The notes under the pieces are model-generated. The model worked only from the letters and a program-made list of their open reading frames with translations, searched no databases and was not told the DNA's origin. Below, piece after piece: positions 422 to 22,716 of a stretch of 64,000 nucleotides of DNA (positions are counted from its first letter, which is position 1; each line of letters starts with the position of its first letter). The translations under genes and the position numbers were made by a program. This DNA is from Paenibacillaceae bacterium (lineage in GTDB: Bacteria > Bacillota > Clostridia > Lachnospirales > Lachnospiraceae), in assembly GCA_015057705.1 (NCBI GenBank), contig SVDU01000025.1, positions 1 to 64,000 on the forward strand, in the 5' to 3' direction.

Positions 422-1150
422 TTACAGGAACGCCCTTGCTGCAGTGGTAAACAAAAAGCAGACAATAACTCCGGTTACCGTGGGAACAAGCCAGGACAAA
501 AGGGTCCATTTCATGCTCCCCGTCTCCTTCCTTATGGTCAGACAGGTTGTGGAACAGGGCCAGTGCATGAGGGAGAAAAGCAGGGTGCTGACGGCAGTCA
601 CCCAGGTCCAGCCATGGGCAATCAGCAGATCCCTTAATATGGATAAATCATTGATTTCCCGTATGCTGCCTTCAGAAAGATAAGCCATAATCATAATGGG
701 TACAACGATCTCATTGGCAGGAAAGCCAAGGATGAAAGCCAGGAGAATCACACCGTCAAGGCCGATTACTCTGGCAAAGGGATCTAAAAAACCGGAGCAG
801 CGGGTTAATAAGGTCATATCTCCCACTGTGATATTTGCCATCAGCCAGATTAACAGACCTGCGGGAGCAGCCACTACAGCCGCTCTTCCGAGAACAAAGA
901 GGGTCCGGTCAAATATGGAACGGACAATGACCTTTCCGATCTGGGGCCTGCGGTAAGGGGGCAGCTCTAAGGTAAAGGAAGAGGGAATCCCCTTTAATAT
1001 GGTTACTGATAGAATTTTGGATATTACAAGGGTCATGAAAATTCCAAGAAGAATAATACCTGACAGGATTCCGGCAGATAAAATAGTGGAAAATGATCCC
1101 GTCGCTCCTCCAATAAAAAACATGGTGATAATCGCAATCATGGTTGGAAA
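422..1150 (-). pseudogene. feoB: feoB segment 4 of 4: C-terminal permease part of interrupted FeoB
   Basis: About 241 codons encode the second Gate domain and C-terminal membrane helices of the ferrous iron transporter FeoB (starting F-P-T-M-I-A-I-I-T-M, ending AARAFL stop). The authentic reading frame enters at the TTTCC core (1146-1150); everything upstream in frame (MEQSCPLGGGA) is element C sequence. Joined through TTTCC to segment 3 (11903-12025), the FeoB sequence NGRF-PTMIAI is restored without loss. Taken alone, this ORF has no ribosome site of its own that I can see and would give a non-functional half protein. Confidence 0.93.
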
Positions 1151-1174
1151 TGCGCCACCACCCAAAGGGCAACT
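1146..1174 (-). other. Attachment site, left end of element C
   Basis: The junction between feoB segment 4 and element C. Shared core TTTCC (1146-1150, sense strand of feoB) is also at 11903-11907. The element-side arm (1151-1174, sense AGTTGCCCTTTG...) pairs as an imperfect inverted repeat with the arm at 11882-11905: 18 of 24 positions around a central TT. This is the expected form of a serine-integrase attP half. Confidence 0.8.
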
Positions 1175-1209
1175 TTGCTCCATACGACGAGTAAATGGCT
1201 GACAGTTCC

Positions 1210-2835
1210 TTACTCGCCGTCGACAAAAATATGAAGGTCTTTTCCGTCCCAGACAATTTTTTTAACCATCAATTTGATTAAGGTTCGTTTCTCTTCCATG
1301 GACAGAATGTCAAAATTGTCCTTGAAGCTGGATAATGCCGTAGACAGCATATTCACTTGAATTTCGCTGTCGCTAATGACATTATTATCCTTTTGCAGAC
1401 AGGCTTGTTCGCCTTTTAAAGAAGACAATTCATTGTCAAGTTCCGTAATTCTGGTGTTTATTCGTTCAATAAATGCAGTTCCTAAGTTCCCATGTGACAA
1501 TGTATTAATTAAGTTCTCAATCTCACTGTTGCATTTTTTGATTCTCTCATCAATATCTGCAATGGGATTTTTTTGAACTTGCCCCTGTAAATCACGTTTC
1601 AGCTTTTCCAGCAGCTTGTAGATACCAGAATTTTCATTGGTATACTGCATGAGATATTCGCAAACTAAATCATCCGCCTGCTGACCGTTGATATTCTGAC
1701 AGTCACATAACGCTAAACCTCCACGCAATTTATTGTTACAGATATAATCGTACAAATCACGGTTTCTGCTTTTGCCGCTCCGCTGCTTTGCAAACATACG
1801 GCTTTGGCATTTGCCACAGAAGATCAAACCAGACAGTAAGGAGTAGTCATTGTGCATGACCGCAGGTTTCTTTCCTGTGGGTATATTGTCTTTTAAGGTA
1901 TTTTGAATTTCTACCCATTTTTTACCAGGTATACGCCCCTTGTGCTTTCCAATAGAGACTATCCATTTATCTATGCCCTGCCGTGGAGCGTTCTTTTTCC
2001 TGTAATCACGTTTATTGTAGGCTAACAAAGCGTATTTACCGGAGCAATCAGACTTGTCAAAACAAACGTCTGCCTGAAGTTCTGTAAAATAGTTCCATGC
2101 ATCTTCATCAGCAATGCAATAAACCGGATTTTGTAAAATCTCTTTTATACCTGACAACGAGAATATTTTCCCGGTACGTGACACGATTCCCTGTTTGATT
2201 AAGTATTTGCTGACACCAGACACACTGCGAAGTTCCAAAAATTTGTCAAAAATACAGTCAACTGTTTTCAATTCTACCGGATCATCTTTTAATTTACATG
2301 AAGTTTTTACTTTACCATCAATAACGATTTCCTGTGTTTTTTCGGAGGTAAATCCTGTTGGGGTAGTTCCACCCAACCAGCGGCCAGTTCTTGCCAGCAT
2401 AATCATATTATCACGGACACGTTCCGCTATAGTTTCTCTTTCCAGTTGGGCGAAAACAGAAGCTATGTACATCATAGCTTTTCCCATAGGTTTTGACGTA
2501 TCAAATTCTTCTTTAATACAAATAAAAGAAATATTGTGATTATTCAAATTCTCAATCAATGAGGAAAAATCACTGACATTACGACTGACACGATCAAGAC
2601 GATAGCATACAACATATTCCGGTTTATTCGCCTTTATGTCACGGAGCATTTGCTGAAACTGTGGCCTGTCAGTGTTCTTTGCAGAGAAACCTTCATCTTC
2701 ATAGACGGTTATCACTGCCTGATCTGCATGAGGTAGCTTAGTCATAATATACTCTTTACACATTTCAATCTGATTTTCAACACTTTCTCCCTTGCCAGTG
2801 TAGATCGATTTACGGCTGTAAATAAAGATTCTCAA
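1210..2835 (-). CDS. Large serine recombinase of element C
   Basis: A 541-residue site-specific recombinase. The N-terminal resolvase catalytic domain (about 1-150) starts MRIFIYSRKS, with the nucleophile serine in YSRKS and arginines in YRLDRVSRN. A recombinase domain follows, then a zinc ribbon (CGKCQ about residue 337, with later CNNK and CDCQ) and a coiled-coil region to about 500. The architecture and length match the large serine integrases. Its stop lies 60 nt from the junction with feoB segment 4, so it is probably the integrase/excisionase for element C. Confidence 0.93.
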   Translation of the reverse strand: MRIFIYSRKSIYTGKGESVENQIEMCKEYIMTKLPHADQAVITVYEDEGFSAKNTDRPQFQQMLRDIKANKPEYVVCYRLDRVSRNVSDFSSLIENLNNHNISFICIKEEFDTSKPMGKAMMYIASVFAQLERETIAERVRDNMIMLARTGRWLGGTTPTGFTSEKTQEIVIDGKVKTSCKLKDDPVELKTVDCIFDKFLELRSVSGVSKYLIKQGIVSRTGKIFSLSGIKEILQNPVYCIADEDAWNYFTELQADVCFDKSDCSGKYALLAYNKRDYRKKNAPRQGIDKWIVSIGKHKGRIPGKKWVEIQNTLKDNIPTGKKPAVMHNDYSLLSGLIFCGKCQSRMFAKQRSGKSRNRDLYDYICNNKLRGGLALCDCQNINGQQADDLVCEYLMQYTNENSGIYKLLEKLKRDLQGQVQKNPIADIDERIKKCNSEIENLINTLSHGNLGTAFIERINTRITELDNELSSLKGEQACLQKDNNVISDSEIQVNMLSTALSSFKDNFDILSMEEKRTLIKLMVKKIVWDGKDLHIFVDGE

Positions 2836-2929
2836 AGTTATTCACCGTCCTTTTTCTGTATTATAGAGATAATCATCCAGAAAAGAGGAGGTTCTTTAAT
2901 CCTCCCCTTTTCATCCAAATAGCTTCATT

Positions 2930-3534
2930 CTATATATTCAACACTTTATAATTAATACTACATTTTTTCTTGTCATGTGCCAGACCAATACAGATAACCT
3001 CGCCCTTCAATCCCGTATAATATCGGTTCTTGATTATCTGCTGTAACGCCTCTTCTTTCAGCCGTTCTAAATCTTCTCCCTGCTTAAACTCAATAATTAC
3101 ATAAGCTTCCTTTACAAATTGCGTCAACTGTTGTATAGCAGTAGAATAAAGAGCATGAGAAGCCTGTGAATCTCTCAAAACTTCAATCATAGCATAAAAA
3201 TCTTTTGTTTCAAAAGAATCAGGGCTGGAATTAATCTGACAGGCATATTCCGTATTCATAATTGCTAAGCCATCAAAAATATTCCTGCTATCCGTCTCAA
3301 TGTCAAAAAATTCTTTGAGCATTGTTAAATTTAATGTCTTTCCGAATCTCCTGGGACGGGCAATCAGCGCCACTTCATTCTTCATCTCAATAAAATCCTT
3401 TATCATCAAGGTTTTATCCACGTAATAGGAATCATTTTCACGCAATGGAAATCATCAATTCCTATCGGTAAGATTCTTTTTACCCCCAAGCCTTCTATCC
3501 TTCCTAAAATATTTGCAGTACATCTTATCCTCAT
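2930..3534 (-). pseudogene. Broken AAA-ATPase / PD-(D/E)XK (DUF1703-type) gene
   Basis: The N-terminal part carries the family hallmarks YYVDKT, then IARPRRFGKTLNLTML (P-loop-like motif), and the C-terminal part carries the nuclease-like stretch YVIIEFKQGEDLERLKEEALQQI. Intact members are usually above 500 residues; here the two ends are fused in about 170, so a large internal piece is missing. The start at 3534 reads MRIRCTANILGRIEGLGVK and LPIGIDDF, then loses frame by one base just before LRENDSYYVDKT. Deletion plus frameshift make it non-functional. Such genes are frequent cargo in Clostridia genomes. Confidence 0.8.
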
Positions 3535-3635
3535 AATATCATATCCCTATCATTCTTACCAGTCCAGGTTCCGAGTATTATACCGAATCCGTTCATGGAA
3601 CTCACCACTTAATCACCATTAAGGTTCATTCACAT

Positions 3636-5375
3636 TCAATCATCTGCAGGAATTGTTATCGTAACCTGAGTTCCTACATTAATAATACTTTGAATTTCTA
3701 ATCCCCTCTGTTCTCCAAAATATAATTTCAAACGCTGATTAACATTTCTAACTCCTATGGATTCGTTAGATTCCTTCAGCAAAATGGATCTCACCTTCGC
3801 CTGTGTCATTCCCACACCATTATCAGAAACAGACAATATTAACATTTTATTTTTTATTCTTCCGCTTATATTGACCATGCCTCCTTTCGTTTTATTGTCA
3901 AGGCCGTGAATGATGGCGTTCTCAATCAAAGGTTGTAAGATAAGCTTAGGAAGCTTGTATGGGAACATCTCTTCCGGTATATCAACAGTGAATACAATTC
4001 TTTCTTCATAACGTTTTCTTTGAATCATAAGATAATTATTTATATTTTTAATCTCCTCCTCAACATTCGTAAAATCTGAGCCATTAATGGTATAATACAT
4101 CATATCACCTAATGACTTCGCCATCGCCCCCACTTCCGGCACACCCTTTTCTCTGGAAAGCCAGTTAATCGTATCCAAGGTATTATATAAAAAATGGGGA
4201 TTTATCTGCATGCGCAGAGATTTAAGTTCTGCTTCCTGTTTCAGCATGGTCTCCGTGTATACCTTATCAATCAGGTCATTGATATTATAAACCATCATAT
4301 TAAAATTCTGGGATAAAAGACCAATCTCATCACTTGATGTCACACTGCTGATTACATTTAAATCCCCATTTCCAAAATCCTGCATTGTCTTTAACAGCTT
4401 TTTAATGGGGTCGGAAAAAGACAGTGTGTATAAGATGCTCACTCCGGCGGATACAAGAATTGCAATTGCGAAAACTAATGCAAAATACTGTTTTAGTTCC
4501 ACAAATATATTCTGATAACTGATAACCGGAATCACTGCCATCAGATTCCAGGAGCGGTTGGATAGTGTATGGTTTGTAACATACTCCTCCTGATGATTCT
4601 GTACAATATCAAATATCCGGGCAGATTTCTGAGCGACTACCTTCTGATAAGTATCATTTAATCTGGTATTTAAGAGTTCAAGATTGTTTCCAGAAACAAT
4701 GATCCCGTCCTGATTCACAATAAAAATCTTCCCATCCTTTACAAAACCAAGGCCATTCAGCACTTCTGAAAATTTGCGTTCCGATACGTGAACCATCATA
4801 TACCCCAATGGTCTCATAGTCTTTATGCTGTTGATCTGGGCTGCTACTGTAATATAGCGTTCTGCAGAATTGACTCCCAGCCATACCGCGCTTCCTCCGG
4901 CATCATAAATTTTATTTTTCTGAATACGATTCACAGGGTAGTCCTTTATTGTTTTGGATATAATTTCAGGCACCCCGCTTTCCGGCACAAAAACGACTGA
5001 CTGAATATTATCATCAAACAGAATATATTTGTAGATGGTATTTCTCAGTTCTTCCCTGGCTAAATACCCCGCATACGAATTGTTTCTGTTTTTTGTCAGC
5101 TGGGATAAATAATTCTGCACATTTGGCTCTTTCTGAATATTAAAGATTAAGGTCTCTACATCTCCCATCAATAAATCCAGATTATATCCAGTTTGCACCA
5201 ACATATCGTTTATATATTGCTGCGTCTGGCTTTCCATTACTCTTCTTGAATAACTGTAATATTGAATAGTGAGGATGGTAATCACAGCAATACACAATCC
5301 CATGCAAGCCGCTGCAAGCTTTTGGCTGATTTTAAATTGAAATTTGCGCCGTCTTTTTTTCATATGTTTTTCCAC
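3636..5375 (-). CDS. YesM/LytS-type sensor histidine kinase
   Basis: A 579-residue membrane kinase. A transmembrane helix at about 20-40 is followed by an extracellular sensor region to about 295 and a second helix near 300-320. Next come a HAMP domain (SDPIKKLLKTMQDFGNGDL), the His_kinase motif LRMQINPHFLYNTLDTINW with the phospho-acceptor His, and an HATPase domain (ENAIIHGLDN, SDNGVGM). It overlaps the response-regulator gene by 16 nt, so the pair is co-translated. Kinases of this kind usually sense sugar status and control the adjacent CUT1 importer. Confidence 0.92.
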   Translation of the reverse strand: MEKHMKKRRRKFQFKISQKLAAACMGLCIAVITILTIQYYSYSRRVMESQTQQYINDMLVQTGYNLDLLMGDVETLIFNIQKEPNVQNYLSQLTKNRNNSYAGYLAREELRNTIYKYILFDDNIQSVVFVPESGVPEIISKTIKDYPVNRIQKNKIYDAGGSAVWLGVNSAERYITVAAQINSIKTMRPLGYMMVHVSERKFSEVLNGLGFVKDGKIFIVNQDGIIVSGNNLELLNTRLNDTYQKVVAQKSARIFDIVQNHQEEYVTNHTLSNRSWNLMAVIPVISYQNIFVELKQYFALVFAIAILVSAGVSILYTLSFSDPIKKLLKTMQDFGNGDLNVISSVTSSDEIGLLSQNFNMMVYNINDLIDKVYTETMLKQEAELKSLRMQINPHFLYNTLDTINWLSREKGVPEVGAMAKSLGDMMYYTINGSDFTNVEEEIKNINNYLMIQRKRYEERIVFTVDIPEEMFPYKLPKLILQPLIENAIIHGLDNKTKGGMVNISGRIKNKMLILSVSDNGVGMTQAKVRSILLKESNESIGVRNVNQRLKLYFGEQRGLEIQSIINVGTQVTITIPADD

Positions 5376-6166
5376 TTCTTTACCAGCAGTTTTCTGTATT
5401 CTCTAGGAGACTGTCCATAATATTTTTTGAAAACCTGGCTAAAATACCTTTGATCCGGTATCCCGATGAGGGAAGCGACCTCTGAAATATTAATATCCGG
5501 CCTTTTTAAGTACTCTGATGCCTTACTCATACGCTTATTGTTTAGGATCTCCAAAAATGTATATCCCGTTTCTTTTTTTATGATCCGGTTAATATAAATC
5601 GGATTGAAATGAAATTCCACCGATAAGTCCTGAAGCGATAATTCCGTACAATAATGTTTGTCAATAAACTCCAGTATCCGGCTCAGCTTTATTTTGCTGT
5701 CATTATAGACTGGTTTCTCCCGTTCAATTTCATTCTTAATTTCCAGTTCTTTAATCTTGCACTTCATTTCCACTATGCTGGCAGTTTGCAAATTACTTGC
5801 AGTGATCTCCTCTGCCGCACGCTTGCAGCATGCTAAAATTTCTGCTGGATCGGTTGGTTTTAAAAGATAATCAAAGGCACCCAGCATAAGTGCTTTTTTT
5901 GCAAAAGCAAATTCCCGGTATCCACTTAAAAATATTACTGCGCACTGAGGATTTAAATGCAAAAAAAGTTCCGTCATTTCGAGCCCATCCATATAAGGCA
6001 TTTTAATATCAGAAAGTATGATATCCGGTTTAAGCAACATCGCCAGTTCTATAGCTTCCTGCCCGTTTTGAGCACTCCCGCACACCTTTACACCAATAGA
6101 AGCCCAATCAAGATGCTCCAATCCCTGCCTTATATGTAATTCATCATCTGCAATTAAGATTTTCAT
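5360..6166 (-). CDS. YesN-type response regulator (REC + AraC HTH)
   Basis: A 268-residue regulator. The receiver domain (1-120) has the acidic pair DDE near the start, the phospho-acceptor Asp in PDIILSDIKMPYMDG, and the conserved Lys in LLKPTDP. After a short linker, a C-terminal AraC-type double helix-turn-helix (about 165-265) carries the signature INISEVASLIGIPDQRYFSQVFKK. Paired with the kinase just downstream (overlap of 16 nt) and following the importer genes, it most likely switches on the glycosidase-transporter operon of element C. Confidence 0.92.
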   Translation of the reverse strand: MKILIADDELHIRQGLEHLDWASIGVKVCGSAQNGQEAIELAMLLKPDIILSDIKMPYMDGLEMTELFLHLNPQCAVIFLSGYREFAFAKKALMLGAFDYLLKPTDPAEILACCKRAAEEITASNLQTASIVEMKCKIKELEIKNEIEREKPVYNDSKIKLSRILEFIDKHYCTELSLQDLSVEFHFNPIYINRIIKKETGYTFLEILNNKRMSKASEYLKRPDINISEVASLIGIPDQRYFSQVFKKYYGQSPREYRKLLVKKWKNI

Positions 6167-6258
6167 TCAATCACCCTTTGTATTCTTATGATTCCTATTT
6201 TAGCAGACCATGCAACCCTTAGCCAGTCAAATCATATAAAAAATCTGTTTTTTTACAC

Positions 6259-7089
6259 TTAACCTTTCACTGCTCCAGCGGTCATCCCATCCATAATTTT
6301 ATCATGTAGTATCATATATACGAACACTGTTGGTATAATTGTCAAAACTACTGCAGCCAGCATGCCTGTATAATCCACCGAATCCAAATCTGCAAACGAA
6401 GTCAATGCAACCGGTAAGGGCATTTTTTTTTCAGAAGACAAAAAAATCTGAGGAAAAAGAAGATCATTCCATATGTTGATAAAATCAATAACTGCAACCG
6501 TAACTATAGATGGTTTTGCAACAGGTGTTATAATTTTAAAATATGTGCCAATGGCAGTGCAGCCATCCATAACAGCGGCTTCTTCCAGTTCAGCAGGAAG
6601 CGTTGAAAAAAAACCTTCCAATATAAATACTGTAATCGGGAAAGCGAATACCACTTGGGCAATGATAACCGATGTATAGGAATCCAATAGTTTCATTCCG
6701 TTAAACATGGAGAATAATGGAACAATGGCTGCATATGCCGGAATGCTCAGACCTATAAGAAACAAACTTTTCACAAACAGGGAATACTTAAATCTCAGCC
6801 TTGCAATTCCATAGGACACCATAGAACCGAGCAAAACTGCAATAAAAACTGCAGCTACTGTAATGATTATAGAATTAACAAAGCTCTGCCCAATGCTTCC
6901 TTTTGTAATGGCTCTTATATAATTATCAAAATGATACGTAACTGGCAATCCCCACGGATTTGCAAACAAATCCTTGTTATCCTTAAAGGAATTTAGGAAC
7001 AGCCATACAATAGGGTATAGACAGCAAACTGCAAATACAGATAAGGAAATATATTTTATAACAGTACCAAGATCAGTTTTTTTTCTCAT
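6259..7089 (-). CDS. CUT1 sugar ABC transporter permease (MalG/UgpE-like)
   Basis: A 276-residue inner-membrane protein with about six hydrophobic helices. It has the permease EAA loop (ELEEAAVMDGCTAIGTYFKIITP, about 175-197), which docks on the ATPase. It sits 10 nt after the MalF-like partner. No ATPase gene is in the cluster; CUT1 systems commonly share a distant MsmK-type ATPase. Substrate is not readable from sequence; the neighbouring GH42 enzyme suggests a galactose-containing oligosaccharide. Confidence 0.92.
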   Translation of the reverse strand: MRKKTDLGTVIKYISLSVFAVCCLYPIVWLFLNSFKDNKDLFANPWGLPVTYHFDNYIRAITKGSIGQSFVNSIIITVAAVFIAVLLGSMVSYGIARLRFKYSLFVKSLFLIGLSIPAYAAIVPLFSMFNGMKLLDSYTSVIIAQVVFAFPITVFILEGFFSTLPAELEEAAVMDGCTAIGTYFKIITPVAKPSIVTVAVIDFINIWNDLLFPQIFLSSEKKMPLPVALTSFADLDSVDYTGMLAAVVLTIIPTVFVYMILHDKIMDGMTAGAVKG

Positions 7090-7099
7090 TGGATCCCCC

Positions 7100-7981
7100 T
7101 TAAAATTCTATTTTTTCTGTCTTAATTATGTGATTGACCAACCAGATAATGAACATACTCATCGCTAGCATGATTGCACCAATCGCGCTGGCATACCCAA
7201 ATTTTAGGGTACGGAATCCCTGGTAGTACATATAAGTTGCCATCACCTCGCTGGCGTGATTGGGTCCCCCCTTTGTCATAGACCAGATCAAGTCAAAATA
7301 TTTCAGAGAACCCGTAATGATCAAAATGATATCTATCTTTATTACATGCCTGATGAGAGGCAGAGTGATATGAAAAAACTGTTGTGAATTGGATGCACCG
7401 TCTATCCTTGCTGATTCAAAAAGACTCTGGGGAATTGCTTTCATTGCTGCCAGCTGAATTATCATATGATAGCCTACAAATTTCCACATAACTACTACGA
7501 TCAGTGCCAACATAACGGTCTTTTCCTCACTTAGCCATGCGTGTTTCCAGCCGCTCAAATGCAAAAAGTCAAGCAGGGAATTAACCAGCCCAAACTGGGA
7601 ATTGTACACCATATTGAAAAGCAGACCCACTCCTGCTCCGCAGATGACAGATGGCAGAAAAAAAACGGACTGAAAAAATTTAGACCCCCAGATCTTTTTA
7701 AATAATGCATTGCCAAAAAACAATGCCAGAGGAAGGTGGGCAATCAGCGATCCAACAACAAGCAGAAGATTGTTTTTAACCGCCTTTATAAAAAATTTGT
7801 CATTCATTAGATTTATATAATTCTTCAAACCAATAAATTTTTGCTTGTTCATTAGATCTGTCTGGTAAAAGCTCAGGAAGATGCTGTATATGATAGGTAT
7901 GAGTACAAACAAAATGTATAAGGTCAATGCGGGCAAAACAAAGATTGCAACTGTCTTTTTTTCTTCTAAAACTTTATTCAT
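7100..7981 (-). CDS. CUT1 sugar ABC transporter permease (MalF/UgpA-like)
   Basis: A 293-residue membrane protein with six predicted helices and an EAA-type loop (ESARIDGASNSQQFFHITLPLIRH, about 190-212). N-terminal FVLPALTLYILFVLIPIIYSIFLSFY is typical of UgpA/LacF permeases. It lies between the binding-protein gene (71 nt upstream) and the second permease (10 nt downstream). It forms the membrane channel with the 6259-7089 product. Confidence 0.92.
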   Translation of the reverse strand: MNKVLEEKKTVAIFVLPALTLYILFVLIPIIYSIFLSFYQTDLMNKQKFIGLKNYINLMNDKFFIKAVKNNLLLVVGSLIAHLPLALFFGNALFKKIWGSKFFQSVFFLPSVICGAGVGLLFNMVYNSQFGLVNSLLDFLHLSGWKHAWLSEEKTVMLALIVVVMWKFVGYHMIIQLAAMKAIPQSLFESARIDGASNSQQFFHITLPLIRHVIKIDIILIITGSLKYFDLIWSMTKGGPNHASEVMATYMYYQGFRTLKFGYASAIGAIMLAMSMFIIWLVNHIIKTEKIEF

Positions 7982-8052
7982 AAAGTATTAATCCCTTTCT
8001 TTTAAATAGAGGAACGCTGCAGATAAAACAGCCTTCCCCCTTCAATCAGTTC

Positions 8053-11881: not shown

Positions 11882-11907
11882 TGTTTCCCTTTGTATGGTT
11901 GCGGAAA
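11882..11907 (-). other. Attachment site, right end of element C
   Basis: The junction of feoB segment 3 with element C. Core TTTCC on the feoB strand is at 11903-11907. The element-side arm reads TCCGCAACCATACAAAGGG (sense, 11905 downward), the partner of the arm at 1151-1174. The circle junction would read CCCTTTG...CAAAGGG around a central TT. Confidence 0.8.
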
Positions 11908-12025: not shown

Positions 12026-12048
12026 ACAGCGGCAATCTATGCTTTTTT
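12020..12048 (-). other. Attachment site, left end of element B
   Basis: Core CATGTG (feoB strand, 12020-12025) is shared with 18971-18976. The element-side arm reads, on the plus strand, TGACAG (12024-12029), 4 nt, then AATCTATGCTTTTTT (12034-12048). This is the exact mirror of the arm at the other end. The arm overlaps the last codons and the stop of the recombinase gene (KKA stop is encoded by AAAAAAGCATAG). Confidence 0.88.
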
Positions 12049-13656: not shown

Positions 13657-13801
13657 GTCCTCCAGCCTCCAGCCGTTTCTTTAACAGACTAAGAACCAAT
13701 TCCTTTACGGATGCCTCTCCTTTATAACAGCGCTCTATCAAAACCGCGGTCTGCTTTTCTCCCCATTTTTTTTCATAGGTGCTCTCTTGGGACAAATCCA
13801 T
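13649..13801 (-). CDS. 50-residue ORF translationally coupled to the element B recombinase
   Basis: The start at 13801 is chosen because AGGAGG stands 8 nt before it (sense AGGAGGTGGGCATCATG). A longer frame to 13852 lacks a ribosome site. The product (MDLSQESTYEKKWGEKQTAV...) is charged and helical. Its end overlaps the recombinase start by 8 nt, which implies coupled translation. Family not recognised. It may modulate the recombinase, but nothing in the sequence proves this. Confidence 0.6.
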   Translation of the reverse strand: MDLSQESTYEKKWGEKQTAVLIERCYKGEASVKELVLSLLKKRLEAGGRE

Positions 13802-14016
13802 GATGCCCACCTCCTGAAAAATCTTATTCATAAAGGTTTGTACCATATACATGTGTGAATTCCAATGGTAGAAAAACTGCTGTTTGCATTTAGAGGTGTA
13901 TATTTCAGCTTTTATAAAAGGTTGATTTTTTCAATACTTTTATGCTTTTTGCTTTAAACCTTCCTAAACTTACGCATTTACTTTATGCACTTTTTACTTT
14001 TTCGACAAAATGTAAC

Positions 14017-14045
14017 TTGCACTCTTATATATTAAAAGCTATAAT
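14017..14045 (+). promoter_or_regulatory. Promoter of the element B chemoreceptor gene
   Basis: TTGCAC (14017-14022) and TATAAT (14040-14045) are separated by 17 bp: a strong vegetative sigma-A type promoter. Transcription would start near 14052, about 70 nt before the chosen ATG. Confidence 0.7.
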
Positions 14046-14123
14046 CAGGCTATATACCAGTTGAAGAATCAGCTATTGTTTCTGTATCATCTATGGCTGA
14101 AAAAAAGATTAGGGGAGCTTACT

Positions 14124-15866: not shown

Positions 15867-15894
15867 TCAAAGTACACCGCCATTAACGCAAAAA

Positions 15895-15946
15895 AAAGAA
15901 ACAGGACAGGAAAATCAAGAAATGATCTTTCCCGTTCTGTTTCTTT
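15895..15946. terminator. Bidirectional terminator between the MCP and VanW genes
   Basis: An imperfect inverted repeat between AAAGAAACAGGACAGGAAA (15895-15913) and TTTCCCGTTCTGTTTCTTT (15928-15946) sits between two convergent genes, with A/T tracts on both sides. Confidence 0.8.
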
Positions 15947-15951
15947 CTGTC

Positions 15952-17463
15952 TTACTGATTCTCCGCTTCTGCCACACCAGGTCCCACATTCACAGCCTCA
16001 TGGGTCTCACCCGGTTCTTCTGCCGGAGCTGTTGTGGTGCTTTCCGGCTGTGCATGAGTTTCCTCTATGGTCTCTTCGTGCTTTAAGGTAGTATTTCTCT
16101 GAATTACCTGTGGTTTGCCTTTATAACTGCTGTTATGAAGCGGCTCTTCCTTTATTACAGTGTCGCCCTTCTTTAATACACGGTAGCTTTTAAAATATCC
16201 TCCGATGGTTCCTTTATCCACTACCTTTTCTGTTCCAAAAGGCAGCGCTGTGTTTTCCTCATAGGTAACCGGAAGGGGATCGGAATCCTTCACCTTTTCT
16301 GAACGAATGGTAACCTTTACACCATCCTCAAGAACCGGGATTCCTACGATAGATAGTTTTAAAGTAGTTCCGTCTAAAGATGCTCTCAATACGACAGAAG
16401 AACTTCCGGTATTGATAAATTTTAAATCCGGTCCGGCATAGCCGTCAAAGCTGACCATGGCATCCTGTCCCTTTTCCACGTAGGAGGGGGCAAAGCTGTG
16501 GGAATTACGTTCCGTGGTTTTAAACCCGCTTTCTATAATCGCATGGTACAGTGTGGTGGAAACCTGACATACACCGCCCCCTGGCTCTTCAATTAAAACG
16601 CCGTTTCTGTATGCGCCTGCAGGCTGATATCCCTTTTCACTGGTACGGTTACCGGTGGTATTATTAAAGGAAAATTCCTCACCAGGCTTTAAGACCACGC
16701 CATTGATGGCATTTACTGCAAGGCTGATATTCTGATTCCTGTTTTTATTGGTGGTGGTTTTGGTAGTAAAGGTACCGATTACCTTATACTGTTCCTTTGC
16801 CTGAGCCTGGGTCCTTACGGGTGCCTTAAGGGTAAACTCTGCCGGGATCTCTGCCTGAAAATTTTCTTTCTTAGCAGCATCCAGAAGCTGATTTACTAAC
16901 TTCTCCTGGTCCAGTACTCTGCCATTTAGCTCTTTTGTATAACTGTAAGCCCCTGTTTTCTGGTCAAATGATTCTACTTCTGAATTGACTCCGTCTTTGT
17001 TCCAGCGCTTAGCAAGGGCTTCTGCCTTCTTTTTAAATGCTTCCTTCATGGAATCGTAATCCAGCTGATAATCCTGTGGCTGATCTGCCGGAGTTTCACT
17101 CAGCTGCTTCATAATGTTCTCCAGCTGACTGTTTACTACATCATCTATTACAACTGCATCTGTTCCGTCTGTAACTGTCATTCCCCACTGATAACGCTCT
17201 TCAATGGTGTCTTTTGCCTCTTTTACAGTCAATCCGGAGAGATTGGTATTTCCAATTCTGGCTGATACCAGCGCTTTCTCCGGAACTAATTCTTTTTCTT
17301 TGGTTTCTGTGATCACCTGGCTGCTGCCAGAATCTTTGGTTTTTTTGCTGTTACCAAAGCTATATAAAATACCAATCGTTGACAGGGCAGCTATTAGCAA
17401 TGATCCATAAATAATTCTCCGATTTCTTCTTACACGTTTTCTTCTGGCCCTGTTTTTATCCAT
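15952..17463 (-). CDS. VanW-domain exported protein (YoaR-like)
   Basis: 503 residues. An Arg/Lys-rich cytoplasmic tail precedes one transmembrane helix (about 18-35). Then come a peptidoglycan-binding-4-like region (LTVKEAKDTIEERYQWG) and a VanW domain (about 225-360: ISLAVNAINGVVLKPGEEFS, EEPGGGVCQVSTTLYHAII). A G5-like segment and a low-complexity Glu/Thr/Pro tail follow. It is probably surface-anchored and acts at the cell wall; the biochemical role of VanW is not established. It is 4 nt downstream of the ccdA fusion gene, so the two are one operon. Confidence 0.88.
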   Translation of the reverse strand: MDKNRARRKRVRRNRRIIYGSLLIAALSTIGILYSFGNSKKTKDSGSSQVITETKEKELVPEKALVSARIGNTNLSGLTVKEAKDTIEERYQWGMTVTDGTDAVVIDDVVNSQLENIMKQLSETPADQPQDYQLDYDSMKEAFKKKAEALAKRWNKDGVNSEVESFDQKTGAYSYTKELNGRVLDQEKLVNQLLDAAKKENFQAEIPAEFTLKAPVRTQAQAKEQYKVIGTFTTKTTTNKNRNQNISLAVNAINGVVLKPGEEFSFNNTTGNRTSEKGYQPAGAYRNGVLIEEPGGGVCQVSTTLYHAIIESGFKTTERNSHSFAPSYVEKGQDAMVSFDGYAGPDLKFINTGSSSVVLRASLDGTTLKLSIVGIPVLEDGVKVTIRSEKVKDSDPLPVTYEENTALPFGTEKVVDKGTIGGYFKSYRVLKKGDTVIKEEPLHNSSYKGKPQVIQRNTTLKHEETIEETHAQPESTTTAPAEEPGETHEAVNVGPGVAEAENQ

Positions 17464-17467
17464 ATTA

Positions 17468-18799
17468 TTAGTCTCTTACTCCTTTCCTTGTCTGATCGAT
17501 AATGCTCTTCATCGTGTCCTCTGATAACTGTCCGCTTGCATATCCAAATACATTGCCATCCCGGTCAATCATAAAGGTGGTTGGATAGGAGTATATCCCA
17601 TACGCATCGAATAATTCTGCTTTGGTATCCATGAGCACCGGATAGGTATATCCATTATCTTTTAAGAACGTTTTGATTCCCTCTTCATCCTTTTCATTCC
17701 CATAACCAGGAGCTGCTACTCCAAGAACAATCAGCGCGTCATCGCCCTCTGTGCTGTAGGTCTCATATATCTTCTGTATATCCGGCATTTCTGCTCTGCA
17801 GGGCGGACACCAGGTCGCCCAGAAATTTAAAAAGATGGTTTTCCCTTTATAATCCGATAAAGAATGTGTCTTGCCAAACTGATCTGTTAAAGTAAAATCA
17901 ATGGCTGGAAGAATCTGGTCTTCTCCATTCTGAGTTTCCTCTGTCTGAGACTGGGATTCAGCCGTCGTTTCCGCTGTGGCGGATTCTTTTGCCGTTTCAG
18001 ACACTGTTTCCCTGGTTGATGGTTCTGTCTCCTTTGCCGGTTTTGTTGACTCTTTTGTAAATGGAGACTTTACAGAAGACAGATAACCGGTCACGGAATT
18101 CATTTTTCCCGTAAACATCAAAAGACCCATAAGTACCATCAGCGCTCCGCCAACTTTAACCGCATTTTTAGCAACATTCCTGTGTGTCTTAAAAAATTCA
18201 AGAACAGATGTGGTAAAAAACCCTACTGCCAGAAATGGCAGAATAAATCCCAGGGTATAGACTCCAATCAACATAAATCCCAGTGTCTTGGTGGAAGCAG
18301 ATGCTGCCATGATCAGCACACTGGCCAGAGCAGGTCCTACACAGGGTGTCCAGGCGAAGCTGAAAGTAAATCCCATGAGAAGGGCTGTAAACGGAGACAT
18401 GGCTAGTTTGTCAAACGAAACGGAAAGCCTGCGCTCCTTCCCCAGAAAAGAAGAATTTCCCAGGAATCCAAGCTGATATAATCCGAACATGAACACAAGA
18501 ATGCCGCCCAGTCTGGCAAACAGAAGCTGATTGGATTTAAAGAAGCCTCCAAGTGCTGAGACACCAATTCCCAGAAGAAAGAAAGTAAAACTGATTCCAA
18601 TCACGAAACAAACGGTATGTAACATAACCTTGCTTCGCTTATAATAGATTCTTCCATCCTCACCTGTTACTCCGGTTCCCCCTGACAGATATCCAATATA
18701 GAGAGGAATTAAAGGCAGCACACAGGGTGAAAAAAAACTTACAATTCCCTGTAAAAATACGGTTAAAACCGGAACACTCATGTCAATCGAAAATCCCAA
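17468..18799 (-). CDS. CcdA-TlpA fusion: membrane thiol transporter with thioredoxin domain
   Basis: 443 residues. The first 230 form a CcdA/DsbD-like membrane domain with about six helices and two redox cysteines in SFFSPCVLPLIPLY and SFAWTPCVGPA. A Ser/Thr/Glu-rich linker (about 245-290) leads to a TlpA/ResA-type thioredoxin domain with the active site WATWCPPCRAE (about 330). The membrane part would pass electrons from cytoplasmic thioredoxin to the outside domain, which reduces exported disulfides or peroxides. It is the first gene of the element B operon, with a strong promoter upstream. Confidence 0.92.
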   Translation of the reverse strand: MGFSIDMSVPVLTVFLQGIVSFFSPCVLPLIPLYIGYLSGGTGVTGEDGRIYYKRSKVMLHTVCFVIGISFTFFLLGIGVSALGGFFKSNQLLFARLGGILVFMFGLYQLGFLGNSSFLGKERRLSVSFDKLAMSPFTALLMGFTFSFAWTPCVGPALASVLIMAASASTKTLGFMLIGVYTLGFILPFLAVGFFTTSVLEFFKTHRNVAKNAVKVGGALMVLMGLLMFTGKMNSVTGYLSSVKSPFTKESTKPAKETEPSTRETVSETAKESATAETTAESQSQTEETQNGEDQILPAIDFTLTDQFGKTHSLSDYKGKTIFLNFWATWCPPCRAEMPDIQKIYETYSTEGDDALIVLGVAAPGYGNEKDEEGIKTFLKDNGYTYPVLMDTKAELFDAYGIYSYPTTFMIDRDGNVFGYASGQLSEDTMKSIIDQTRKGVRD

Positions 18800-18892
18800 A
18801 TGATTACCTCCTGTAAGTGATACTTTTACCGCCTGTTTATGGCAGTTAACCTCGTGTTTCTGTACTATTTTTAATTACAGTTTATATTTGTA

Positions 18893-18921
18893 ACTATAAC
18901 ATTCAACATAAAAAGTGTCAA
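18893..18921 (-). promoter_or_regulatory. Promoter of the ccdA-vanW operon
   Basis: On the minus strand TTGACA (18921-18916) and TATAGT (18898-18893) are separated by 17 bp, a near-consensus promoter inside element B only about 50 nt from its end. The cargo is thus expressed independently of feo. Confidence 0.78.
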
Positions 18922-18947
18922 GATAGTAATCCAGGATTTAACAGTGA

Positions 18948-18976
18948 AAAAAAGCATAGATTTCTTCTGTCACATG
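18948..18976 (-). other. Attachment site, right end of element B
   Basis: Plus-strand arm AAAAAAGCATAGATT (18948-18962), 4 nt, CTGTCA (18967-18972), then the central CA. The feoB-strand core CATGTG is 18971-18976. It mirrors the arm at 12024-12048 base for base in both blocks, with the same 4-nt spacing. Confidence 0.88.
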
Positions 18977-20122
18977 GTCAGCGCCTGCTTTCCGCAGGCT
19001 GAACATCGTTTAAAGCAACGGTCTAAGTTAAAAGCTACTCTGGGAAGATAACCAAAATCTTCCAACAGAGTAAAGAGCGGGAAGAAAATGGCCATAGGCG
19101 GCAGCATAACCGATATTACCCATGCCAGCACCCGGTATACACCATGAATGAAAAGCCCGGACAGAATTACCGGAACTCCCGCTGCATCTGCGGCAATGGA
19201 CAAGCGGTCTTCGATACCAAATAACAGATTACTTAATAGCTGGGATGGATAATTGGCACCTGTGATAGTCAGCCAGAAAATCCCCAGTAGAACCAGGAAC
19301 ATAATAGGAAATCCAGTTGCTTTACTGGTAAAAAGGTGGTCCAGTTTCCGGTCTTTCCCGTTATAGGTTTTATTTTCAAATACCACGACTCCCTTACACA
19401 GCTCCTCTGCTTTTCGGATAAATACAGCTGCCATATCATCACTGACCTGTTCCTGGCTGATCCCCTGTTCCTTCCATTCTCTCCAGATTTCAGTAAGACA
19501 GGCCTTTACAGCCTCCGAATCAGCCAGAGGCTTTAAATATCTGTTTACCGCTCCCATCAGGTTTTCATTGGCATCCAAAAGCCTTGCACAAAGCCACCGG
19601 ACCTTAACTGCTCCATCTGATACTTCCTCCACAGCAGGAGCAAGCCTTTTTATGGCCTCTTCAATATATTGGGGATAATATATGAGCACAGGTCTCTCAT
19701 AATTAGTCTCCTTTTCTTTGATGCACCGCTTTAACCCCTGATAAATCTGGTTCAGTCCCTTTTTGCTTCTTGCTGTTGTTCCTGCTACAGGGGCGTGGAG
19801 CCGTTCCTCCAAAAGATCCAGATTTAGAACAATCCGTTTCTTCTTTGCCTCATCCATCAGGTTCACACAGACTACCACACGGTCTGCTGCCTCCATGATC
19901 TGGAGTACCAGGTTTAAATTCCTCTCCAGACAGGTGGCGTCACAAACAGTTACTACTGCATCGGGATTTTCAAAGCAGATGAAATCCCGTGCCACCTCCT
20001 CTTCTGTAGAGTGTGCCATAAGGGAATAGCAGCCTGGAATATCCACCATAACATACCCCTGATCCCCATCCCGGCACCATCCCTGGGCATTGGCAACCGT
20101 TTTGCCGGGCCAGTTTCCGGTG
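18971..20122 (-). pseudogene. feoB: feoB segment 2 of 4: GTPase and first permease half of FeoB
   Basis: About 384 codons. It enters at the CACCGGA core (20116-20122), reading TGNWPGKTVANAQGW; an in-frame TAA just upstream is element DNA. It holds the G2 Thr region, G3 (VDIPGCYSL), G4 (VCVNLMDEAKK), the helical regulatory domain, and the first membrane helices and Gate domain, ending in CFKRCSACGKQALTM. It lacks the P-loop, which is in segment 1. After the CATGTG core the frame hits TGA in element B. It is non-functional alone but perfectly in frame with its neighbours after excision. Confidence 0.95.
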
Positions 20123-20137
20123 GGTTGATGCAGTTAG
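20116..20137 (-). other. Attachment site, left end of element A
   Basis: The core CACCGGA on the feoB strand (20116-20122) is shared with 22555-22561. The element-side arm CTAACTGCAT (sense, 20137-20128) pairs 9 of 10 with ATGCAATTAG at the other end, each 6 nt from a central AC. Confidence 0.82.
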
Positions 20138-20319
20138 CCGAAAAATGAAAAAAAGCCATTTTAACTCTGTCAGATCAAAATCCGGAAGTCGGAAAACGGG
20201 TTTGTGATGGAAGTTTGTTCAAACTGTGAAATATTTGTGAATTTTTTCTTAATTTTAACTGATTTCTATTTTTTTAATACAACTTAATTTTTTTTAAGAA
20301 ATAAATAACAAATTTGCCA

Positions 20320-20348
20320 TTGATTTTATTCAATTTCGGTGCTACACT
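20320..20348 (+). promoter_or_regulatory. Promoter of the element A lipoprotein gene
   Basis: TTGATT (20320-20325) and TACACT (20343-20348) with a 17-bp spacer, about 75 nt before the start codon. The rest of the 20138-20427 stretch is AT-rich with no ORF. Confidence 0.6.
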
Positions 20349-20427
20349 GAGTTCTGACTTCAGGGACATAGGACAACCGGAAGCCATACAACCATAATAC
20401 CTATGCAGTCTCAAGGAGGATATAATT

Positions 20428-20787
20428 ATGAGGTTAACAACAAAGAAACTGGTACTGACAGGTGTTGCAGTATTATCAATGGCAGCTATCTCCGCATGTG
20501 GAAATACCAAAACTTCTGAAACAACTGCCGCTACAAAAGCAGAAGTAACCACCGAAGCAACTACAAAACCAGCAGAAACTAAAAAAGATGTAAAAGAAAG
20601 CAGTTCCTTAGCAGAAACCAAAAAAGACGAGACTAAGAAAGAAGAAACCAAGAAGGACGAAATCAAGAAAGATGAAACCACTGCTGCAGAGTCCAAGACT
20701 GGCGACAGCAAAGTAAAGACAGAGTCCCCAGCAGCTGCAAAAGACAGTAAGTCAGCAGGAACAGAAACAAAGAAAGCTTCTAATTAG
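20428..20787 (+). CDS. Lys/Glu/Thr-rich repeat lipoprotein
   Basis: 119 residues. A lipoprotein signal peptide ends in a lipobox (AAISAC, Cys-24). The whole mature part is low complexity: Thr/Ala/Glu/Lys with tandem KKDETKKEETKKDE-like repeats, unlikely to fold as a globular domain. It has a strong ribosome site (AAGGAGG, 9 nt spacing) and a terminator right after. It looks like a surface-tethered charged linker or decoy. No family is recognised. Confidence 0.8.
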   Translation: MRLTTKKLVLTGVAVLSMAAISACGNTKTSETTAATKAEVTTEATTKPAETKKDVKESSSLAETKKDETKKEETKKDEIKKDETTAAESKTGDSKVKTESPAAAKDSKSAGTETKKASN

Positions 20788-20813
20788 TTAGTAAGATTCC
20801 TACATAGCATTTC

Positions 20814-20848
20814 AAAAGGCAGATCCGTTAATCCGATCTGCCTTTTTA
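20814..20848 (+). terminator. Terminator after the element A lipoprotein gene
   Basis: Stem AAAAGGCAGATC (20814-20825) pairs with GATCTGCCTTTT (20835-20846), followed by T/A-rich sequence. It also lies just after the convergent 49-residue ORF, so it may serve both. Confidence 0.85.
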
Positions 20849-20855
20849 TATAGAA

Positions 20856-21005
20856 TCATTCCGTTGATCCATTTTCTTTTTCTTCTTTTTTACGAAGATT
20901 TTTCAGTGTAATTTCCACCCCCTCTTTTTCCCCTATAATTCTGGCCAGCGCTTCAAATGCCCTGACCGGATCTGCCTGATTTACTGTGGTGATAGTATCT
21001 GCCAC
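20856..21005 (-). CDS. 49-residue ORF in element A, unknown
   Basis: A GTG start with a strong site (AGGAGG, 8 nt spacing). The product begins VADTITTVNQADPVRAFEAL and ends in a Lys/Glu-rich tail. It is helical and charged and is divergent from the recombinase gene. No family is recognised. The coding signal (ribosome site, codon pattern, tight placement before a terminator) supports it as real. It could regulate the recombinase or its direction; that is speculation. Confidence 0.6.
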   Translation of the reverse strand: MADTITTVNQADPVRAFEALARIIGEKEGVEITLKNLRKKEEKENGSTE

Positions 21006-21133
21006 TACTACCACCTCCTTTCTGGTTAATTCTATGTTCCGCTGTTTGTCCTTCTTACCTTATTTAAAGCAATCACAGAAAACGGGTTTTAATTTTATAT
21101 CGGAGGGAGTAGATTATACCAGGAGATGATAGA

Positions 21134-22531
21134 ATGAAACGTGCTGAGGAATCAGAGAAACTGCTGCGTGTAGCTGTCTACATCCGTGTGTCTTCCGATG
21201 AACAGGCGGAACGCGGCGATTCCATAAGAGATCAAAAAGAGCGGGGCATTAAATACATCGAAGAACATAAAAATATGATTCTGCAGGATATTTATCTGGA
21301 CGACGGCGTTTCCGGGCAGAAAATTGACCGGGACGACTTTACCCGTTTAATGAATCATGTAAAGGAAGGGCTTGTGGATCTGATTATATTTACCAAGCTG
21401 GACCGGTGGTTTCGCAGCCTGCGCCACTATCTCAATACCCAGGCCGTCCTGGAAAAATATCATGCAGCATGGACCGCCATTGACCAGCCCTTTTTTGACA
21501 CTTCCACTCCCTACGGCCGGGCATTTGTGGCTCAATCCATGACCTGGGCCGAACTTGAGGCACAAAACGGCGGTCTTCGTGTGGCTGACGTCTTTCGTAC
21601 AAAGGTCATCCACGGGGAAGTCATATCAGGCAAAGTCCCACACGGATACCGGATCGCGAATAAGCATCTGGTTCTGTCAGAGGAAGCCCCTGCCATTCAG
21701 GACACGATTTTTTATTTCTTAAAACATCAATCCATGAATCAGGCTGTAAAGTATTTAAAAGAGACACACGGAATCATTATGTCTGTACAAAACTTTAAAC
21801 AGTCAATCCTTCGCAATGAAAAAATCACCGGACGTTACAGAAGCAATGAGACTTACTGTCCCCGTCTGATTTCCGATGAAGCCTTCCATCAGATTCAGCG
21901 CATCCTGGATCATAACAGTAATATAAAATCCGGACAGAAATACCCCTACATTTTTACCGGCCTTCTGATGTGCGCCGAATGCGGTCAAAAAATGGGCGGC
22001 TGCCATATCAATACAGTTTCAAAGCGGAAGGACAAAGCAGTACTCCGATATAAATACCCAGCCTACGAATGCAAGCGGCACCGGTCTGTGAGGAAGTGTG
22101 ACAACGGGGGAGCAATCAGGGAAGTCCGCATTGAGGAATATCTTCTGAAAAATGTAAAAGAACAATTCGGATCTTATCTGGCAGACTTTGAAGCAAAAAG
22201 CAAAAAAACAGTTGATAACCGTCAGAAAAAAAATCAGCTTCAAAAGAAAATTGACCGGTTAAAGGATTTGTATTTAAATGAAGCAATTACACTGGAAGAA
22301 TATAAAAATAACAGGGAAGAATTAGAGATTCAGCTGAATAAACTTTCTGATATAAAAAAGCCAGCTGAAAATCCGGAGACTTTAATAGACCTGATTAATA
22401 AAGACTTTGAAAGCATGTATCAGCGCCTTGATAACCAGCAAAAGCGCCTGTTCTGGCGGTCAGTCATCAAAGAAATACGCCTGAGTAAGCGCTCCGGCTG
22501 TCACCGGGAATACACCATTATTTTTTTATAA
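21134..22531 (+). CDS. Large serine recombinase of element A
   Basis: A 465-residue recombinase preceded by an AGGAG site. The resolvase domain (about 11-150) has nucleophile Ser in AVYIRVSSDEQ and arginines in KLDRWFRSLRHY. A recombinase domain follows (GKVPHGYRIANKHL), then a zinc ribbon (LMCAECGQKMGGC ... YECKRHRSVRKC) and a coiled coil (about 340-430). The stop is 24 nt from the core at 22555. It is distinct in sequence from the recombinases of elements B and C, in keeping with the different core dinucleotide. Confidence 0.94.
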   Translation: MKRAEESEKLLRVAVYIRVSSDEQAERGDSIRDQKERGIKYIEEHKNMILQDIYLDDGVSGQKIDRDDFTRLMNHVKEGLVDLIIFTKLDRWFRSLRHYLNTQAVLEKYHAAWTAIDQPFFDTSTPYGRAFVAQSMTWAELEAQNGGLRVADVFRTKVIHGEVISGKVPHGYRIANKHLVLSEEAPAIQDTIFYFLKHQSMNQAVKYLKETHGIIMSVQNFKQSILRNEKITGRYRSNETYCPRLISDEAFHQIQRILDHNSNIKSGQKYPYIFTGLLMCAECGQKMGGCHINTVSKRKDKAVLRYKYPAYECKRHRSVRKCDNGGAIREVRIEEYLLKNVKEQFGSYLADFEAKSKKTVDNRQKKNQLQKKIDRLKDLYLNEAITLEEYKNNREELEIQLNKLSDIKKPAENPETLIDLINKDFESMYQRLDNQQKRLFWRSVIKEIRLSKRSGCHREYTIIFL

Positions 22532-22542
22532 TTGTTTTGCCC

Positions 22543-22561
22543 CTAATTGCATGATCCGGTG
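22543..22561 (-). other. Attachment site, right end of element A
   Basis: Core CACCGGA on the feoB strand at 22561-22555, then the element-side arm TCATGCAATTAG. The arm ATGCAATTAG is the mirror (9 of 10) of that at 20128-20137. Confidence 0.82.
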
Positions 22562-22716
22562 TGCTGATTCATCCCAGTCAGCTGATTAAATACCGTGCTT
22601 TTCCCCACATTGGGGTTTCCGGCCAGCGCTATCACCAGATCTTCTGGCTCCTTTTTTTTAATTTCCAGTCCGCAGTCTACCGATTTGATTCCCATGGATT
22701 CTCTGCTTAGTCCCAT
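22555..22716 (-). pseudogene. feoB: feoB segment 1 of 4: FeoB start and P-loop
   Basis: 54 codons from ATG 22716, overlapping the feoA stop by 10 nt. It encodes the FeoB N terminus with the G1 motif [19 protein letters not shown] and ends ...MNQHTG at the CACCGGA core. As it stands the frame continues three codons into element A and stops (22543), giving a 57-residue peptide. Joined to segment 2, the classic FeoB sequence HTG-NWPGKTV is restored. Confidence 0.95.

Follow-up and report, generated by a model that had tools for sequence, protein, structure and literature searches.

What keeps a ferrous iron transporter gene that is cut into four pieces free of stop codons? The question is raised by the window, i.e., the whole 64,000-nucleotide stretch analyzed here (positions 1 to 64,000 of contig SVDU01000025.1, from the genome coded G000), in which the gene feoB is interrupted by three elements, E1, E2, and E3. 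According to our analysis, feoB is probably a sporulation-type gene split by elements of the type of skin, which interrupts sigK in B. subtilis and C. difficile, and these elements would be excised in the mother cell to restore the gene.

Organization of the Interrupted feoB Gene

The pieces of feoB are preceded by feoA and located as follows:

22710..23048, minus strand: feoA, directly upstream of feoB (Pfam FeoA, 1.1e-17)
22555..22716, minus strand: feoB piece s1, 162 nt, from the start to ...NQHTG, with the G1 loop included
18971..20122, minus strand: feoB piece s2, 1152 nt
11903..12025, minus strand: feoB piece s3, 123 nt, 40 codons
422..1150, minus strand: feoB piece s4, 729 nt, running to the stop

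The pieces add up to 2166 nt. Without the repeated cores (7 + 6 + 5), 2148 nt are obtained, forming a single open frame of 716 codons including the stop. An initial annotation of this DNA had described four in-frame pieces of one gene with this joined length, and its coordinates, strand, and length were all reproduced. It had also proposed three separate serine-recombinase elements with precise cores, which was borne out by the presence of one set of recombinase domains (Resolvase, Recombinase, and Zn-ribbon) per element, in a gene located beside one junction:

20123..22554: element E1, about 2.4 kb, between s1 and s2
22555..22561 and 20116..20122: E1 core CACCGGA on the s1 side and the s2 side
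21134..22531, plus strand: rec1, large serine recombinase of E1 (Pfam)
12026..18970: element E2, 6.9 kb, between s2 and s3
18971..18976 and 12020..12025: E2 core CATGTG on the s2 side and the s3 side
12037..13656, minus strand: rec2, large serine recombinase of E2 (Pfam)
1151..11902: element E3, 10.8 kb, between s3 and s4
11903..11907 and 1146..1150: E3 core TTTCC on the s3 side and the s4 side
1210..2835, minus strand: rec3, large serine recombinase of E3 (Pfam)

As is characteristic of skin-type elements, all three interrupt feoB in frame with a site-specific recombinase of their own, and the attachment (att) sites, compared by eye, consist of a short shared core with imperfect inverted arms inside the element ends. 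For example, the E2 arms in G000 read ACAGAAGAAATCTATGC at one end and, on the opposite strand, ACAGCGGCAATCTATGC at the other, while the arms of E3 surround CAAAGGG. Regarding the relationships of the recombinases, rec3 shares 41% identity with the sigK-element recombinase of G000, the best NCBIfam match of rec1 is XisF (140 bits vs. a cut-off of 375), and all three match the phage integrase family phrog_95.

Distribution of the Elements in the Genus

The genus sample comprised 25 genomes, including G000, and was queried with feoB piece s2. A match at 1e-100 or better was obtained in 21 genomes, one of which (G011) contains only an intact FeoB with 50% identity; the remaining 20 bear feoB of the interrupted type. 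E2 was situated at the identical codon, between ...ALTM and CMGFG..., in all 20 genomes with a locatable s2 (G000 included), its halves lying on two contigs in G014. Three more genomes (G001, G007, and G016) carry E2 on a separate contig, which in G001 ends inside rec2, and E2 was not found in G010 (67% complete) or G011. E1 was identified in 13 of the 25 genomes (in situ in 11 of the 20, through its right end in G002, and on a contig of its own in G001) and is absent from eight genomes in which s1 and s2 are contiguous. E3 was present in nine, seven with both ends, G002 with the left end (s4 being on another contig), and G001. An assembly error in one genome was rejected as an explanation, since the junctions are common to other species; the E2 junction being identical in 20 of 20 genomes, both chance and the artefact for which the initial annotation had allowed are ruled out.

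An intact feoB at the syntenic site of a relative, for which the same annotation had asked, was found in the sister-genus genome G384, where a closely related feoB is uninterrupted and the icd-dtxR-feoA order is the same. Judging from the sequence, this suggests that the uncut gene is the ancestral state. In another sister-genus genome (G070:C1:1225000-1256500; L174, L183), we observed an E1-like right end, a stop in s4, and no s1 in the 15 kb read upstream, by which sequence the copy is a decayed feoB. In G018 (G018:C8:563000-590000; L126, L167), icd-dtxR-feoA-s1 and part of s2 are present twice and adjoin runs of N, which probably reflects an error of scaffolding.

Selection on feoB and Age of the Elements

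In total, 84 feoB pieces from 22 genomes of the genus were read (all four in 18 genomes, four on two contigs in G014, three in G002, and five in G001 and G007 together), and none contained a stop codon. When neutral change of 10% was simulated on the feoB of G000, about seven stops arose, and only 1 of 300 runs had none. The mean ratio of nonsynonymous to synonymous substitution (dN/dS) among six close species was 0.035 for s1, 0.041 for s2, 0.000 for s3, and 0.043 for s4. Toward nine far species, for which dS is near or at saturation and the ratios are rough, the means were 0.045, 0.067 (range listed to 0.070), 0.005, and 0.072, respectively. The comparison genes gave similar values, 0.036 (icd) and 0.037-0.068 (dtxR); the recombinase rows of this table were dropped owing to wrong best hits. 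The amino-acid identity of s3 was 97.5-100% in the genus, with a dN of 0.000 among close species. By these sequence comparisons, all four pieces are under purifying selection across the genus.

The conservation bears on two other explanations. If ordinary mobile elements persisted by chance in a dispensable, dead feoB, purifying selection would not be expected on all four pieces, including the 40-codon s3 that is useless alone, nor would the absence of stops and the conservation of the promoter described below; with these findings, the explanation is very improbable, even considering the redundancy of FeoB in the genome, the use of the same site by other recombinases in other genera, the stop in s4 of G070, and the common insertion of large serine recombinases into conserved genes. 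Alternatively, the pieces could be kept for other reasons, either as split proteins that work alone or as DNA conserved only for its att sites. The junction DNA is indeed conserved, and with E2 alone feoB consists of two large parts. However, s2 and s4 greatly exceed att sites in length and are conserved as protein rather than as DNA, E1 severs the GTPase P-loop in s1 from the rest of the G domain, and s3 encodes 40 codons, so we attach hardly any weight to this possibility.

The elements differ in their histories. The distances between the recombinases of E1 and E2 follow those of FeoB (Mantel r of 0.937 for rec1 in 10 genomes and 0.914 for rec2 in 18 genomes, each with 0/2000 permutations), and the same applies to ccdA2 (r of 0.931, 18 genomes, 0/2000 permutations), indicating that E1 and E2 are old, vertically inherited residents. 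In contrast, rec3 tracks FeoB poorly (r of 0.618, 7 genomes, 98/2000 permutations), with pairs far closer than their FeoB proteins: 98% vs. 78% identity between G004 and G018, and 94% vs. 81% between G000 and G008. This points to movement of E3 between species with insertion at the identical codon. Recent independent insertion was rejected for E1 and E2 by the Mantel tests, a rejection that does not extend to E3. Active integrative elements or defective prophages in transit, with only a coincidental link to sporulation, would account for the behavior of rec3 and for the phrog_95 matches of the three recombinases. Nevertheless, E1 and E2 are vertically inherited, and no significant match to phage structural, lysis, or conjugation genes was obtained among the window's element proteins (Pfam; PHROGs, 10 proteins; NCBIfam), with NCBIfam returning conjugation names only at insignificant E-values of 0.03-0.07. 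Elements in transit are therefore a highly unlikely account of the locus.

Evidence for Excision

Excision of the elements is well supported. In the congener G001, contig C28 (14,411 bp) has a 95-bp terminal overlap and closes into an E3 circle of 14,316 bp, whose right and left ends meet via TTTCC to form the attP site GGTGGCGCA-TTTCC-ACAACC. Contig C27 of this genome contains the integrated attR with s4, so that both states of E3 are found in one assembly. The attR of G001 reads A-TTCCC and its attP A-TTTCC. With A-TTTCC, the attL of the sister species G022, as a stand-in, the crossover would be placed inside ATT, at AT or TT, fitting the 2-bp overlap expected of serine recombinases. A circle was obtained for E3 in this one congener, while E1 and E2 are represented by core-to-core contigs without a circle: C37 of G001 is E1 from core to core with CACACGGGC at both ends, C192 of G016 (5,036 bp) consists of E2, beginning and ending exactly at the cores, and C137 of G007 is E2 with 15 nt on each side, the contigs C6 and C82 of G007 ending at the cores. 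A core of 6 to 9 bp is too small a repeat to interrupt an assembly, and we therefore interpret these contig ends as branch points at which joined and unjoined forms diverge. Contigs of G007 also stop at the sigK junction, and one has a single base fitting rejoined sigK. The window's own genome yielded no evidence of an excised form. The restoration of feoB by excision, as anticipated in the initial annotation, finds direct support in the E3 circle of one congener and evolutionary support in the dN/dS values.

Promoter of feoAB and the Split sigK Gene

The sigma-K consensus is AC-N16/17-CATANNNTA, and a site of this type precedes feoA in the window:

23053..23083, minus strand: sigma-K-type feoAB promoter, GGAACC-N15-GCATATGTTA (AC-N17-CATANNNTA)

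The pattern AC-N17-CATATGTTA was found upstream of feoA in all 19 genus genomes in which it was readable and in the uncut G384. The full form is GGAACC-N15-GCATATGTTAGGATATGG, with a GTAACC variant in G009 and G022. The true start of feoA is probably a later ATG, as the predicted N-terminus is non-conserved. A sigma-54 or plain sigma-A reading of the promoter was discarded as a poorer fit by eye. A sigma-K-type site upstream of feoA was present in 31 of the 77 loci from other Clostridia that had 600 nt of upstream sequence, compared with a frequency of 2.9% in 2905 random windows. With a stricter form, picked after viewing the matches, a site was found in 13 of the loci vs. 0/2905. A scan of G000 for further copies of the promoter pattern was uninformative (six matches vs. 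six in the reversed control). In the excerpted text of a C. difficile study, the sigma-E and sigma-K motifs are described as resembling those of B. subtilis, and feoA-feoB (CD1518-CD1517) has a sigma-K promoter and a value of 0.05 in a column that we take to be that of the sigK mutant (PMC3789822).

In addition, sigK itself is split in the genus. An N-terminal piece ending near residue 115 was found in at least 24 of the 25 genomes and a C-terminal piece in at least 22. In G000, the two halves (about 280 bits) outscore a full-length sigma gene (250 bits), on which the naming of the split gene as sigK is based, and the genus thus probably already uses recombination in sporulation. The element in G000 (G000:C17:4712-13190; L230) is skin-like and appears to contain hydrogenase-like and glycosidase-like open reading frames (ORFs), named by eye.

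The initial annotation had also looked to a second feoB and to a reversible switch of Fe2+ uptake. Regarding the former, three uninterrupted FeoB proteins of 728, 711, and 670 aa are encoded elsewhere in G000. Every one of the 25 genomes has at least two other FeoB_C matches, and in 22 at least two of these other FeoB lie in frames of at least 666 aa, the exceptions being G014 and G015, each with a single shorter frame, and G024, with frames of 271 and 373 aa. The switch is unsupported, given the sigma-K-type promoter of feoA, the sigma-K-controlled feoAB reported in the excerpt on C. difficile (PMC3789822), and the other FeoB genes. In its general form, such a model would have excision restore feoB in vegetative cells, at a low constant rate or on stress or iron signals, as a bet-hedging or iron-responsive device. 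The excised forms come from assemblies of cells whose growth state is not recorded, a gene for an iron-dependent repressor adjoins feoA in divergent orientation, and the yabG element of C. botulinum is reported to be excised in a fraction of the cells at every time point (PMC10747680). Yet the conserved promoter is sigma-K-like, other FeoB genes occur in all 25 genomes, and loss during vegetative growth should yield element-free species, whereas all 20 genomes in which s2 could be located keep E2. We consider excision in vegetative cells unlikely, and excision in the mother cell, as a terminal event, remains the preferred explanation.

Candidate Directionality Factors

The skin recombinase of C. 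difficile is made constitutively, and whether the element is excised depends on a 72-aa directionality factor controlled by sigma-E and SpoIIID (PMC5025042). Each of the three elements in feoB retains a similar-sized small ORF whatever its cargo, and promoter-like motifs precede two of them (E1 and E3):

20856..21005, minus strand: 49-aa ORF, candidate recombination directionality factor of E1
21029..21053, minus strand: SpoIIID-like box and sigma-E-like -10 before the 49-aa ORF, 17/18 consensus positions
13649..13801, minus strand: 50-aa ORF ahead of rec2, candidate directionality factor of E2 (no family match)
11658..11867, plus strand: 69-aa ORF, candidate directionality factor of E3
11596..11622, plus strand: SpoIIID-like box and sigma-E-like -10 before the 69-aa ORF

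The 49-aa ORF was present in 12/12 copies of E1 read in situ and in contig C37 of G001. A relative of about 50 aa occurred somewhere in E2 in 20/20 genomes, being weak in G002 and G012 and located away from rec2 in G017. The 69-aa ORF was present at 8/8 left ends of E3 and in the G001 circle, though the cargo differs. The motifs, based on the SpoIIID and sigma-E consensus strings, scored 14-18 of 18 before the E1 ORF in the 11 genomes scored of 12, and 14-16 before the E3 ORF in 8/8 genomes, with 16 in the G001 circle; among 3000 random 90-nt windows, 4.4% scored at least 14 and 0.27% at least 16. From sequence, the small ORFs are candidates only for directionality factors. A second SpoIIID/sigma-E-like site (17/18) is located at 20360-20400 of the window, before a lipoprotein-like ORF of E1.

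Several observations weigh against a sporulation-controlled excision of these elements. The attP of E2 was found in none of the 25 genus genomes and in no viral contig, and that of E3 in one of 25 (G001), where the circle could be a collapsed tandem copy; likewise, the contig breaks could reflect a mixed population. Some recombinases look broken, namely rec1 in the G015 draft and both rec1 and rec2 in the G024 draft, where perhaps read errors are responsible, dtxR and ccdA2 being broken there too. In G016, rec2 lies in two frames with a stop. Regarding the small ORFs, the 69-aa ORF has a sub-threshold Pfam match to Unstab_antitox (20.2 vs. 23.3 bits), and all 19 E2 sites found score 13/18, a level reached by 14% of random windows. 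The SpoIIID/sigma-E motif combination was put together after viewing the sequences, and in the positive control, the small ORFs of three sigK elements, no site reached 14. Neither a recognizable sporulation promoter for rec1, rec2, or rec3 nor one common to the elements was identified. Finally, the evidence base consists of assembled sequences.

Cargo of the Elements and Neighboring Features

The remaining features of the elements in the window, and a gene beside feoB, are the following:

20428..20787, plus strand: lipoprotein-like 119-aa ORF in E1 (no Pfam family; present in 11 genomes)
17468..18799, minus strand: fusion of CcdA/DsbD-TM with a ResA/StoA-like thioredoxin in E2 (Pfam, NCBIfam; below NCBIfam cut-offs)
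15952..17463, minus strand: VanW-domain protein in E2 (55 bits vs. a cut-off of 365 for the resistance accessory model)
14061..15866, plus strand: chemotaxis-receptor-like protein in E2, variable cargo
9372..11411, minus strand: GH42 beta-galactosidase, E3 cargo
8053..9375, minus strand: ABC solute-binding protein, E3 cargo
6259..7981, minus strand: two ABC permeases, E3 cargo
3636..6166, minus strand: two-component system of an AraC-type regulator and a histidine kinase, E3 cargo
2930..3445, minus strand: AAA-ATPase-like fragment, E3 cargo
130..357, minus strand: small ORF downstream of feoB, conserved in the genus (no family over the cut-off)

Across the genus, complete copies of E2 range from 4.8 to 20 kb and those of E3 from 11 to 31 kb, with differing cargo. 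The element ends, the recombinase, and the small ORF stay constant despite this change, as does, in E2, the CcdA-thioredoxin fusion (20/20 genomes). At the left end of E2 (18800-18976 of the window), a sigma-A-type promoter (TTGACA-N17-TATAGT in the window) is located ahead of the fusion gene in 20 genomes, together with a CTGTAA...GTACAG dyad conserved in the same number.

feoB as a Target in Other Clostridia

A survey of 80 named loci from other Clostridia, one of them not assessable, revealed seven in which the break in feoB coincides with the E2 site or lies no more than a few bases from it (L023, L028, L034, L047, L064, L074, and L077). In four of these, a recombinase 22-27% identical to those of the window lies directly behind the cut. 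Pieces s3 and s4 were found downstream of the cut only in L077; for the other loci, the far side was not seen downstream in the DNA read. Three family genomes selected for short feoB frames (G334, G266, and G078) are also cut at the E2 site, with the far side visible. Cuts at this site by distant recombinases indicate that the conserved feoB motif around ATGTGCATGG is a common target. In L047, from a Eubacteriales metagenome-assembled genome, s3 and s4 are found in inverted orientation at -7685 to -8524 from the s2 end, some 7.7 kb upstream of the cut, and from its sequence the locus looks as if flipped, not split.

Among viral contigs, relatives of rec2 were found at 20 loci (30-42% identity) and relatives of rec3 at two (35 and 73%). 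The IMG/VR contig L190 (4998 bp) bears feoB s3 (95%), a rec2-like gene (48%), and the rec3-like gene of 73% identity, in an orientation opposite to that in E3 of the window; though filed as viral, this contig is, given its feoB piece and rec2-like gene, probably chromosomal.

A broader proposal, which we regard as tentative and somewhat doubtful, is that feoB acts, in spore-forming Clostridia, as a general docking gene for elements with unrelated recombinases and that stacked excisions form an AND gate delaying late iron uptake. Elements would settle in feoB because it is needed only in a doomed mother cell, persist there for the lifetime of the genus, and gather metabolic cargo, and each directionality factor would have to act before the gene is whole.

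Comparison with Known Systems and Proposed Mechanism

The elements share with skin in sigK (B. subtilis, C. difficile) a serine recombinase, a short core, the splitting of a probable mother-cell gene, and, for E3, a circle on excision. Unlike skin, they target a gene for an iron-transport effector instead of a sigma factor, and there are three of them, with three distant recombinases and metabolic cargo. Other gene-intervening elements in sporulation genes include SP-beta in spsM, gin in gerE, vfbin in spoVFB, vrin in spoVR, and yin in yabG (PMC5595907, PMC4191935, PMC10747680). In the excerpts of these reports, gin is likewise not a prophage, but each gene carries one element and feoB is not among the targets.

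Stacking itself is known from cyanobacteria, in which nitrogen-fixation genes are the classical targets of interruption elements. These elements (in nifD, fdxN, and hupL) resemble the present ones in stacking and in their excision during the differentiation of a special cell, while belonging to another phylum and another kind of development. Of 87 interrupted genes in heterocystous cyanobacteria, 10 contain more than one element, with a maximum of four, in the nifD of Rivularia (PMC4874684). The initial annotation knew of no triple interruption of a ferrous iron transporter; a general statement that no multiple interruption has been described holds for feoB and for spore-formers in the literature found and fails for cyanobacterial nifD (PMC4874684). 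Our search of the open-access literature, in the extracts it returned, contained no report of feoB as a target or of stacked elements in a spore-former. For C. difficile, feoAB (CD1518-CD1517) is under sigma-K, with no interruption mentioned in the excerpted text (PMC3789822). What is new is feoB as a target, three stacked elements in a spore-former, their age, and their metabolic cargo.

We propose that feoAB would serve as a sigma-K-controlled, mother-cell ferrous-iron system, with feoB as the insertion target of three skin-like elements. In growing cells, these elements would remain in place, feoB would be off, and the other FeoB proteins would serve the cell. In the mother cell, each serine recombinase would excise its own element within the core, probably with a small directionality factor under sigma-E/SpoIIID control, yielding a circle and the exact 2148-nt feoB, which could be transcribed from the sigma-K promoter and would presumably encode a working transporter. 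As the mother cell dies, the spore line would retain the elements.

If this is true, developmental gene rearrangement extends to iron transport, and a single bacterial sporulation gene can host several stacked elements that last for a whole genus. It would also explain how mobile DNA stays unpurged inside useful genes, as the gene must work only in a cell that will die. The need of late mother cells for an Fe2+ transporter of their own becomes testable, and three new serine recombinases with mapped att sites are offered.

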